64,000 bases of DNA from Bryum argenteum (lineage: Eukaryota; Streptophyta; Bryopsida; Bryales; Bryaceae), in assembly GCA_037043015.1 (NCBI GenBank), contig CM073323.1, positions 8,866,001 to 8,930,000 of the forward strand, in the 5' to 3' direction. This document shows positions 4,245-56,765 of the stretch, one piece after another (position 1 is the stretch's first letter; each line of letters starts with the position of its first letter). The notes beneath the pieces are model-generated. The model saw only the letters and a program-made list of their open reading frames with translations. It was not told the origin of the DNA and did no database searches. Position numbers and translations under genes: made by a program.

Positions 4245-4745
4245 TTAAAAACCAAAATAATATGTTTTTTGAGGGGGTGCACAATCTTAGGCACTTCCTC
4301 AGATGTTCTCAAACATCGACCTTCGTACCCAACTAGCTTCGAAGGTTTGTTTTTGTTTTGCCCAACAATGAGTATGTTGGTCACTCTTGGTTTGCAAATT
4401 CATTAATCGTTTATTTATTGTTACATTCAAGAATGAGGGGAATGCAATGAATGTGTACCATACATCAATGGCTATTATTCATTAGGTGAACTCAATTTCT
4501 GGGCTACAAAGGTTAGGGACTCTTTGAATGAAAGAGTCAAGCCGAGCAACAGTTCTCTCATGTGATTGGCACACTCAAGAAACTTCAAGAAATGAACTAA
4601 TCACTTGATAGGTTTTTTGCCTTCTATACCCCTCATGAATTGCTTGACTCCATGTGTAAAGCATCGCTTAGAAACTCTTAGTGTTGGCTTCAGAATTATT
4701 AAATCTTATGAAACTGTTAAAGTCTACTCACTTTATGAAACTTAA

Positions 4746-5685
4746 CCCTTTCATGACCACTCGTGTTTTGGAAGTCAAGGTTTTTTTGAGGTGTGTGGAT
4801 GTATTTTGGAGTGCATCGAACAAATGAAGGGTCAAAATTAAGATCCGACCGTATAAATGTGTAGTGAACTTCATATACATGCTAGTGGCCAAACATGGGT
4901 CAGATCTACCATATGAACTAGAGTATTATGATGTTCCGAGTCAAGTGTAGTACATATCATATACATGACCTCGAAGCTTTTTACTAGAATTCAAGACCAG
5001 AATATCCAGATTTGGGCAAAACACATGTGGTCAATATTGTAGAGAGTTTGAAGATCTATCCAACCACAACATGAGCGTTGCATTTTGAGCATTTATGAAA
5101 CCGAAATTGTGAAAAGAGACCAAGAACCCAGTTCCTTGTATACGGTAGCGTACGAGAAATACATGGGATATTGTAGCAAATATGGTCAAATTGAAAAATC
5201 AGACATGGTCACATTCATCAGACGCCGAGCCTTGACGTAGAATCAGTGTGCAAACAACATGTGTTGATTCTTTTTGGAGAGGATTTCACGTTGTACAAAC
5301 GTATACGCTTTTATAGGCGGTGTAGGGTTGCCAAACGAAATCAACTATTCTTTTGTCGACGGACCCAATTGAGTAGTACCCCCATGTTCCCATGTTCCCA
5401 AGGGACCCTTAGAATTGGTGTCATATGTCCTCGACAGCCGTCTTTCCTGAATCTATCTCACTTCTTTCCAAACCATCTACCATATCTCATACTCATCACC
5501 ATGTATAGACAACTCTACCAGGCGGAGTACGAGTCCAAATGCATCGTTGTTTTGTGTAGTAGATCCACCACACACTCCTCTTCTGGCGTTGTTCTCTAAC
5601 ATTTTGCTGTTTCTACACAGATTCTACTCAATCATGGAATAACCACATTTCGGCGACCATATTTGGTTGATTGGTCATGAAAGGG
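4746..5685. mobile_element. TTAA-flanked MITE with 14-bp TIR
   Basis: The element starts CCCTTTCATGACCA and ends with the exact inverse TGGTCATGAAAGGG. TTAA flanks it at 4742-4745 and 5686-5689. It is 940 bp. The CCC start and TTAA duplication are diagnostic of the piggyBac superfamily (established knowledge). It contains no transposase; its longest open frame (5246-5599) has no recognisable domain and is treated as chance. Confidence 0.85.
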
Positions 5686-6732
5686 TTAACCTTCTATTGA
5701 AGATAGAGCCCTTAAAAATCAATCGGTACCAATAATGGCTCACTAGGCTTATTCACCTAAAGGTACATTAGACCTTTGCAATTCAATTTTCCATGAACTG
5801 CCAGCAGGCATTAGAGGGTGCCATTAATTTAGAGAGAATTGCAATTCAAGGTTGAAAAATTCATAATAGGTTGTAGAAGAGCCCAAAAGTGTTGATTCCA
5901 CTTGGTCTATCCTTCTACTTATTTTGACCATGCACAAGAATCTTTTGTAGAGGTACCTTCTTTACAAATTTCCAACTGAAGAATTGACTAAGTATTTCGA
6001 AATGAAAATCAGGTTGGTGGTTTTATGAAGTCTATTTTGAAATATACGCACAAGCTGCTAATGTTGACTTTTCTTGTCCATGTATTGATTGTCAATACTA
6101 TTCAGACAATTTGACCTATTGACCTACAATTGTATAATTCAAAGCATCAATTCTTTTACTGACATTTTTGTACCCAAAGGCAGCTTCCTTTTCAAGAGTT
6201 ACAGCATGCAAGTGTTAGAACCAATTTCAGAAATAGGAAAACTTCCTTGGTCCTTTTTTTTTTTTTTTTTTTTTTTTTTTTTTGTTGAGGAAAAAAGAAA
6301 AACGGAATGAGCAAACTTAGGTAGAATGTCTTTACTAAAATTTCCAAATATCCTTCCTAAACTCAGTAGTGAAAATAGATTGCCCCACCCTTATTGTTTG
6401 ATGTTAGTAAAGACGACCTAATATCCAAGGCAACCTAGAGGACAACCTAGGCCAACCCAATCATGAAGTTAAAGTAATTTCTTCAATATGACAACCTAAC
6501 AATGGAGACAACCTAATTTCTCCATTATGACAAACCAAATCTCTAAACAATCTAATTTCACTATTTAGTGTAGAATTTTAATTGGTATGAGTCCCTTGCA
6601 TCAATTAGGAGGACAAGGAGTTGGGCTCAGAGCTAACCCACCATAAATGCTTGAACCTGAATTTGAGTTGCAACACGAGTACTTTCTTATCATCAGAAGT
6701 TGACAGTCTACTGACTTTGTTGATTAAATTGT

Positions 6733-6975
6733 TTAGTACTAAGATAGATAGATAGAAACTCCAGTCCTTTCTGGTGTGAATGAAGTGTCAGTTCGTAATA
6801 CTAATATCCCGATGGCAACCGGACAAGGGGAAATTAGAACAATACTACTTCCCCCTCTCGAGGGTGGACACTATAACTACGCTAGTTTCTAGCCTGGTTA
6901 CTAGTGCTTTGAAGATACTTCACATAGTATCCCCTCAAAGGGCTTTGAGGTACCCATACAACAAGGTCCAGTTCA
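6733..6975 (+). repeat. Dispersed repeat R1, copy a
   Basis: The copy begins GATAGATAGAAACTCC and includes GTGTGAATGAAGTGTC, then CTCTCGAGGGTGGACACT and ACGCTAGTTTCTAGCC. It is near-identical to 39610-39805 and to the reverse strand at about 17495-17585. The tail (CAAAGGGCTTTGAGGTACCC) is shared with 7600-7740. The element class is unknown. Confidence 0.65.
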
Positions 6976-7599
6976 ATATTAACATATCATATGTTGTTTG
7001 TTCAATCAAAGAAAAAATTATTTGCAAACCATCAAATGGATAATAATTACTTTACTAGGATAGTATTTTGAAATAAAAACAAAGCATTTGTCAATCAATA
7101 AAAACGGCGGAGAATAATGCAATAGGGTAAGAGAACCTAAATCTAGACGGACCCCTATAATCGGACATTCCAAAATGGAGATATTTTTGGGATGAGGTGA
7201 ATATGTTCTTGGATAGGTCGTTCCTGCAGTAGGGTGTACGACTGTAGGTGTACCTATATTAGTCGCTTTTAAATTTTGTAAATAAATATGTGAGTGCTTA
7301 TAAAATACCATAGAAATAGAGAAACCTTGTATTTTCTATTTGCTAATCATTGAAAATAGTAATTTACACGTGTTATCACTCTAAGTATGGTGAATGGCTT
7401 AAGTGTCCAAAAGTAAGTGTACTTACCATATATGCCACTAGATTTGGTTGGTTGCTCGTGTTCTATGTGGTGTACCGAGTAAAAAAATTTGGCACTACAC
7501 GGCTCAAACATGAAGAGAAACATGAGCTCTAACGTATTTAGAGCCCCACGTGGATAGAGAATTCATTAGACCTATCCTTGGATTTAAGCCTAAACGTCA

Positions 7600-55449: not shown

Positions 55450-56160
55450 ATACATTCATTTGCTTGAAAAGTTTTATACCATGATTTGGTATTAATGAGT
55501 AATTTAGTCCACTAGAAAAATCTAACCATTTTTAGCAAATCATGGTGTTTTTCTGAGACGAAGGGAGTAGTTACTACTCTGTAACTAGCTAGGACTACTG
55601 TAGTGTATCATTCCCCAGGATCGTGCAATGATTTTCTTTTGAGAAAACTTTTTACTTTCTCACAAGAATTGCTAGTTAGGAAGAGTTCAAGAAGGTGGAG
55701 CAGATTGCTCCTTATTCATAATTGTGGCCACTCTAATTGCACAGTTAGATCTTGATACAATCTTGATACAAAATGTAGTGTCTCTGCACAGCACTGTACA
55801 GCACTGTACCATGATATCCATTGAAAAAAACTAAATAATTTGTACATTTCTCCGGGAAGTTGCACTGCCTTTGTTACTGATTTTATCTCTTGCTGTGTGA
55901 ATATGATATATGAGTTATATCATGGGGAGATTGCACCCATTTGGAGTCCTGGAAAGACTATACAATCCTATGTCAATAGGGTTATCTGTGTCAAAGTCAC
56001 GAGAAACATTCCTTGAGAGTAAACTTGAGGTAATATTGCAATATAGTTTCTGTGTAGCTCTAGAGTGAATCAAAAGAGTTATGCTTGAGCTTGCAATGAA
56101 TTCTGATGCAAGACTTTTTAAAATGAGGCCAAACCTAACTCATGCTCACTCATAACAAGC
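55450..56160. other. 3' flank of the preceding gene, spacer
   Basis: No gene. The duplicated octamer-like GCACTGTACA occurs at about 55790-55808. Confidence 0.45.
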
Positions 56161-56164
56161 TTGA

Positions 56165-56740
56165 CGCCTAAATGCGTTGAATGTAGAAAAAGAACATTTT
56201 GGATGGTAAGCAACAACTTTGAAGAGTCATAACTTTTTCAATATTTGTTTTGGATAAAATTACTTGGGTGGGGTCCCAAATTAAGTCTAGTTTGTGTGGT
56301 AGGAATTCTAGTAGACTTGTTTAAGTATGAATTTATGTTCTGCATTTTAGTGAAAACAATTCTTGTTTTTGGGTTTTTTAACATGGGGCATGTTTTAGCA
56401 TTGCAAGCCAATTATGCAAAATCCAATTTAGTGTTTTGTGACTTTTTGTATAATTATGGTCTTTGAGATAGATTTTCAACAACTTTGTAGTTGAAAGACT
56501 CTTAATTTGAATACTTCAAGTATTGGAATTGCAATGACGTTTCTACACTAAGAGGAAAAAAAAACCTCCAAAAGGCCGGTGTGAATACACTGTCTGTTTT
56601 CAAGACCTACCCTTGAATGTATGCTCGGAGGTCATCACACTAATGGTGGGACGATTACAAAACCTACAATAAGTCTTCCATAAGATTGTACGGTTTAGAT
56701 TTGAATAACTTGCCTTAAAATAGGTTGGCGCGCACAGGGG
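56165..56740 (-). mobile_element. TTAA-type MITE, sub-family 1, reverse orientation
   Basis: The ends CGCCTAAATGCG and CGCGCACAGGGG are decayed, flanked by TTGA at 56161-56164 and TTAA at 56741-56744. The interior on the minus strand follows 11861-12833, including TTATGACTCTTCAAAGTT (minus strand of 56215-56232). A segment at about 56560-56660 resembles dispersed repeat R1 (GGCCGGTGTGAATACACTGT; GGAGGTCATCACACTAATGG). Confidence 0.65.
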
Positions 56741-56765
56741 TTAAGTTTCCTCAAGGTTACCCATC

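Follow-up and report, generated by a model that had tools for sequence, protein, structure and literature searches.

A land-plant genome window that appears to sample a large piggyBac radiation, with small derivatives and nested copies

The window studied here (the whole stretch of 64,000 nucleotides, C3:8866001-8930000) very probably belongs to a land-plant genome in which piggyBac transposons have undergone a large radiation, where small forms were moved in trans and copies nest within copies. The elements and their small derivatives are piggyBac, and their mode of working is already known for such elements. Their scale in a plant and the number of open transposase frames are uncommon. What is new is that tips of the form CCCTTAA contain an additional TTAA that receives insertions of other copies; such self-targeting tips are also uncommon, and we infer from them a target preference and a route to arrays.

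The genome searched is an assembly of 258.8 Mb in 25 contigs. A plant host had been assumed for this DNA, and 39 matches to the WRKY domain (counting exons separately), against none in 14 control genomes, support a land plant. The window contains 19 occurrences of TTAACCCYT (seven forward, 12 reverse) versus 1.95 on average across 20 first-order Markov sequences. Genome-wide there are 23,184 exact TTAACCCYTAAA tips (11,520 and 11,664 on the two strands) against 401 for the reversed-pattern control, and the longer tip TTAACCCYTAAACGYCC occurs 5,636 times, its control not at all. The TTAACCCYTAAA tip is therefore a genome-wide feature and not one local to the window; at two tips per element, the exact tips amount to about 11,000 element equivalents. 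Contig C1 (44 Mb) departs from this density, with 100 tips in its first 6.9 Mb where about 621 are expected; it also holds five of the 116 scored transposases described below (about 20 expected) and none of the 39 WRKY matches. This contig may be a gene-poor chromosome, for example a sex chromosome.

The elements of the window are as follows; coordinates include both flanking TTAA, and lineage letters refer to the transposase groups given further below.

1..4248, + strand: piggyBac element with a broken transposase gene (the relic); TTAA of its 3' end at 4245-4248
4742..5689: 948-bp non-autonomous element; TIR CCCTTTCATGACCA; flanked by TTAA left and right
8199..8862: element with tip CCCTTAAA; right tip interrupted by 8421-8855
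8421..8855: 435-bp element whose junctions place it in the TTAA within the right-hand tip of 8199-8862
11857..12837: 981-bp element; TIR CCCCTAAACGTCCC
15069..15437: member of the 370-bp family; left end degenerate
15685..16085: 401-bp copy of the 370-bp family; TIR CCCTTAAACGCCCA; one end like lineage A 3' ends
16412..17253: 842-bp element; tips CCCCTAAAGTC and CCCCTAGAGTC; this copy without an intact TTAA
17757..18098: 370-bp family member missing its left end
19046..20568: old 981-bp family copy containing about 585 bases of foreign DNA
37102..38031: 930-bp element; TIR CCCCTAAAAATCCAGG; apparent deletion form of lineage B
44120..44438: 319-bp element; apparent deletion form of lineage B
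53171..53250: 80-bp element whose right end resembles lineage A; TCAA in place of TTAA on the left
56161..56744: decayed, distant relative of the 981-bp family; one good end

The relic had been recognized as that of a piggyBac transposase, and its three frames (53-1600, 1626-2252, and 2228-2545) all match PF13843. Because TTAACCCCTAAAGGCCCA is present at both of its ends, once at window position -1457 and again in inverted orientation at 4248, the relic is an element of 5,706 bases with tips at both ends, beginning 1.46 kb before the window (C3:8864543). The DNA flanking its frames matches group B elements.

The original prediction of many elements with TTAA and CCCYTAAA tips holds for the excess of tips and for seven two-ended elements, those with TTAACCC at both ends (4742-5689, 8199-8862, 11857-12837, 15685-16085, 37102-38031, and 44120-44438, plus the nested 8421-8855). 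Several others are one-ended or degenerate: the second ends of 15069-15437, 17757-18098, and 56161-56744 read TTGACTC, ATAAGCC, and TTGACGCC, respectively. Two single ends had also been proposed; the one at 4244 is the right (3') end of the relic, and position 21300 reads CTAACCCCTAAAC, one base off the tip.

Three of the window's families show the MITE traits of short, uniform length and many copies, with their non-coding nature judged by length alone; at close to 1 kb, they are large for MITEs. The 948-bp element, the only one queried with flanks at both sides (42 and 41 bases), is found at 40 other places at 93-96% identity (40 scored of 179 first-look candidates). Its borders run exactly from TTAA to TTAA in 22 of the 40 copies and lie within three bases in 37 at the start and all 40 at the end, with the remaining three beginning 7 to 10 bases further out. 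For the 981-bp family, copies that are full-length or nearly so were found at 39 other places with 97-98% identity (40 scored of 6,855 first-look candidates); 28 of them cover exactly 1-981, and the matches number 51 overall, the others being partial pieces nearby. Likewise, the 930-bp family occurs at 39 other places at 94-98% (40 scored of 4,363 candidates), 30 of them exactly 1-930. These two queries began at the left TTAA and extended three bases past the right one, probing the right border only.

At 8199-8862, the right tip reads TTAACCC then TTAACCCC on the outer side and has its remainder, TTAAAAGTCC, on the inner side; a reading of this element and 8421-8855 as two overlapping elements was dropped, as the junctions give a nested insertion. 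The inserted element is 96% identical over 423 bases to L029. A non-TTAA target, GTTAC, was considered for 16412-17253 and ruled out, since its relatives in L054 and L055 terminate in TTAACCCCTAAAGTC, at TTAA. Within the 370-bp family, 15069-15437 is 95% identical to L017 (1148-1516) and 87% to inverted 15685-15995, and 17757-18098 is 81-82% identical to 15069-15437 and 15685-16085. The 80-bp element is 85% identical to L050 over 78 bases. The old copy at 19046-20568 aligns to 11857-12837 in two pieces at 73%, and 56161-56744 aligns at 73% to 12450-12804; additional decayed relatives of the 981-bp family, absent from the original list, lie at 40217-40913 and 10106-10389. The window also holds a perfect TGT repeat of 243 copies with 100% matches (13537-14265), a 45-base tandem repeat of 12 copies (24064-24605), an inverted repeat with 86-base arms that are 91% complementary and 9 bases apart (38354-38534), and long open frames that by eye resemble LTR retrotransposon gag and pol (58160-63401).

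Searched with PF13843, the genome yielded 775 candidates and, from these, 116 scored matches; by our count from the listing the domain is stop-free in 93 of the 116. Six places tie at 258.4 bits, as would be expected if their domains were identical and had been copied recently. Open frames do not necessarily encode active transposases. Twenty of the 116 loci, the best-scoring and not a random set, were chosen for a DDE_Tnp_1_7 gene and fetched with flanks. Their proteins fall into five groups by identity:

Group A: L009, L010, L013, L018, L023, L028; tips mostly CCCTTAAACGCCC
Group B: L012, L014, L019, L020, L021, L024, L025, L026; tips CCCCTAAAGATCC, CCCCTAACTGCCC, and similar
Group C: L016, L022; tip CCCCTCAAGGCCC
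Group D: L015, L017, L027; tip CCCCAAAGTG
Group E: L011; no pair

A pair of TTAA-bounded tips flanks the gene at 14 of the 20 loci, compared with 11 of 1000 locus trials with shuffled tip letters, bearing out the assignment of CCC tips with TTAA to piggyBac. No superfamily other than piggyBac accompanies matching TIRs at these 20 loci, all of which were picked for the DDE_Tnp_1_7 gene. Three of these pairs (L017, L018, and L026) are weak, with 11-12 of 16, and none was found at L011, L013, L015, L022, L025, and L027, although L013, L022, L025, and L027 each have one fitting end. For L009, a 7325-bp pair was replaced by one of 4950 bp after alignment to L010. Element borders are also visible in alignments between loci: L014 and L021 are about 98% identical from TTAA to TTAA, where the alignment stops, and that of L009 and L010 likewise ends at TTAA, with an unaligned stretch inside.

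Stop-to-stop frames at the 20 loci range from 469 to 1187 aa. All six long frames scanned contain PF13843 at E values of 1e-78 to 1e-82; no other Pfam family reaches the cut-off in them (a sub-threshold PF01609 match in L017 lies inside the same domain), and their N-terminal extensions have no Pfam match at E 0.1. The only solved structures matched were those of Trichoplusia ni piggyBac (6x67/6x68) and Myotis piggyBat (9c0f); 6x67, labeled Transposase in the structure table, is presumably piggyBac. Presumed catalytic positions were assigned with the help of alignments to these two proteins: all three acids are found by pattern in 18 of the 20 loci, L015 has E at the second, and L011 has one by pattern and two by eye. 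A CxxC..CxxC motif is present at the C-terminal end in 17 of 20, being absent from L011, L021, and L024. As a group, the elements here share with piggyBac and piggyBat the DDE_Tnp_1_7 domain, three catalytic acids, a cysteine-rich C-terminus, CCC tips, and a TTAA target. Lineage A has the tip CCCT, and lineages B, C, and D have CCCC, one base off the CC[C/T]T given for the superfamily in the portion available of PMC2872659; other variants are described from beetles in that of PMC12732532. The transposase domain, the triad, the TTAA duplication, and the cysteine-rich end are all found, as is the tip motif if one base of latitude is allowed.

Several of the small elements share ends with an autonomous element of the same genome, namely the 930- and 319-bp elements and the 370-bp family. 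In the 930-bp element, bases 1-405 are 72% identical to the 3' end of the relic, and the last 53 to 205 bases are 67-77% identical to the 5' ends of L014, L020, L021, L024, and L025. In the 319-bp element, bases 274-319 are 80% identical to the L024 5' end, and bases 80-190 match lineage B near its 3' end. Judged by these alignments, each appears to have arisen from the relic's lineage (B) by internal deletion. The 370-bp family has about 40 bases in common with lineage A at each end: the last 40-43 bases of 15685-16085 are 81-85% identical to the 3' ends of the L009, L010, and L028 elements, and the last 37 bases of 17757-18098 are 84% identical to the 5' ends of L009 and L010. The last 35-36 bases of the 80-bp element are 89-91% identical to the 5' ends of L009, L010, and L028. 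The differing second halves of the TIRs seem broadly to track differing transposase lineages.

A tip reading TTAACCCTTAAACG holds a second TTAA, and insertion into the TTAA within a CCCTTAAACG tip leaves TTAACCC joined to TTAA on one side and TTAA joined to ACGYCC on the other. Across the genome, the outer junction (TTAACCC followed by TTAACCCYTAAA) occurs 351 times and the inner junction (GGRCGT followed by TTAACCCYTAAA) 183 times, with no occurrences of the controls. On contig C2, the one contig whose two lists were compared in full, there are 39 inner and 60 outer junctions; 23 of the inner ones have an outer partner within 6 kb, leaving 16 inner and 37 outer junctions unpaired. As the target is known at paired junctions, these demonstrate the TTAA duplication that had been predicted. 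The inserted lengths are 259-269 (three cases), 369-370 (six), 934-937 (three), 978-982 (seven), 588, 598, 1094, and 1246, and it is by length, not sequence, that their families were assigned. At C3:12088245-12089225, the interval from an outer to an inner junction is filled exactly by a 98% identical member of the 981-bp family. The window itself holds one nesting case, 8421-8855 in the right tip of 8199-8862.

Under the proposed mechanism, full-length elements of about 4.5-6.5 kb, bounded by TTAA and with tips CCCYTAAA or close variants, carry a gene for a transposase with an N-terminal extension, a DDE_Tnp_1_7 domain, and in most cases a cysteine-rich end. As expected from the family, this enzyme would cut at the tips, excise the element, and join it into a TTAA; the junctions show that this TTAA is duplicated. 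Shared ends, sharp borders, and copy number suggest that deletion forms of lineage B and short elements with lineage A ends were moved in trans. Copies nest where a CCCTTAA tip offers its own TTAA, and in places may be stacked head-to-tail, judging from spacing only.

The original prediction attributed the families to one or several related transposases, which agrees with the match of the 930-, 319-, and 370-bp ends to transposase lineages; no such partner was found for the 981- and 948-bp families. Among the loci fetched, there is no transposase-bearing parent of the 981-bp (ACGTCCC) or 948-bp (CATGACCA) family, nor, for the former, a partner in the 3' flanks of four further transposases, which would be consistent with some non-coding families, the 981-bp foremost, having been mobilized by an unrelated transposase that likewise targets TTAA. 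We consider this improbable, as both ends of the 930- and 319-bp elements match lineage B, the ends of the 370-bp family match lineage A, and the 981-bp tips, CCCCTAAACGYCC, are of the same form, with a 981-bp copy occupying the same tip TTAA as other families. It is far less credible still that the repeats are merely dispersed or telomere-like, with TTAACCC doubled by slippage. CCCTAAA is the plant telomere unit; the tip CCCCTAAA includes it, and TTAACCCTTAACCC resembles a two-unit repeat, but the copies are two-ended and of fixed length with unrelated flanks, and the inner junctions lie at the distance expected of insertions. Slippage may account for some of the 351 doubled tips; for the families described above, the repeat reading is refuted.

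Returning to piggyBac insertion, tip TTAA sites are occupied in 183 of 3,688 cases (5.0%) and flanking TTAA sites, where two elements share a single TTAA, in 273 of 23,184 (1.2%), a 4.2-fold difference that is based on exact patterns, is uncorrected for sequence context, age, and composite copying, and has a comparator other than ordinary TTAA. The CCCTTAAACG motif occurs 6,752 times anywhere in the genome (control, 573). On contig C4, inner junctions at 13696184, 13696543, and 13696899 are spaced by 359 and 356 bases; the spacing predicted for serial insertion of a 370-bp element is 359, which suggests serial insertion into the tip TTAA. We tentatively propose, at somewhat less than even odds, that CCCTTAA tips act as built-in landing sites, favored above other TTAA, where repeated insertion builds head-to-tail arrays.

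At the loci fetched, elements of about 4.5-6.5 kb with frames of up to 1187 aa exceed the beetle piggyBac elements reported in the text available of PMC12732532 (2.07-3.47 kb, 500-725 aa). Animal piggyBac elements reach 9.51 kb and 1316 aa, with 554-903 aa for Pokey, in the part available of PMC10813416, so length is no new feature here. Coral CMITEs are alike in TTAA duplication, short TIRs, and tandem arrays; one family seems derived from a piggyBac-like element, and one case involves insertion into TTAA between two direct repeats (available portion of PMC2872659). The elements here differ in being up to 981 bp, with thousands of ends, and whereas that source attributes coral arrays to replication slippage, the spacing in this genome points to successive insertions at the TTAA within the tip. 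Among plants, excerpts list PiggyBac as one of the angiosperm MITE superfamilies (PMC10004981), count 1230 PiggyBac entries in the fern Ceratopteris, 0.00% of its assembly (PMC6890710), and call piggyBac only occasional (PMC12732532). Compared with these accounts of other land plants, piggyBac is far more abundant here, and many transposase frames are open. The literature matches listed, from a search covering part of the literature, include none that deals with a large expansion of piggyBac in any moss, liverwort, or hornwort.

With dozens of open transposase frames, this genome would be well suited to work on piggyBac families in plants and on how they are controlled, and its nesting junctions provide hundreds of sites at which target choice can be measured from sequence alone. 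If the tips do act as landing sites, they would offer a route from transposon to satellite-like repeat without slippage, each copy bringing new TTAA targets within its own inverted repeats.
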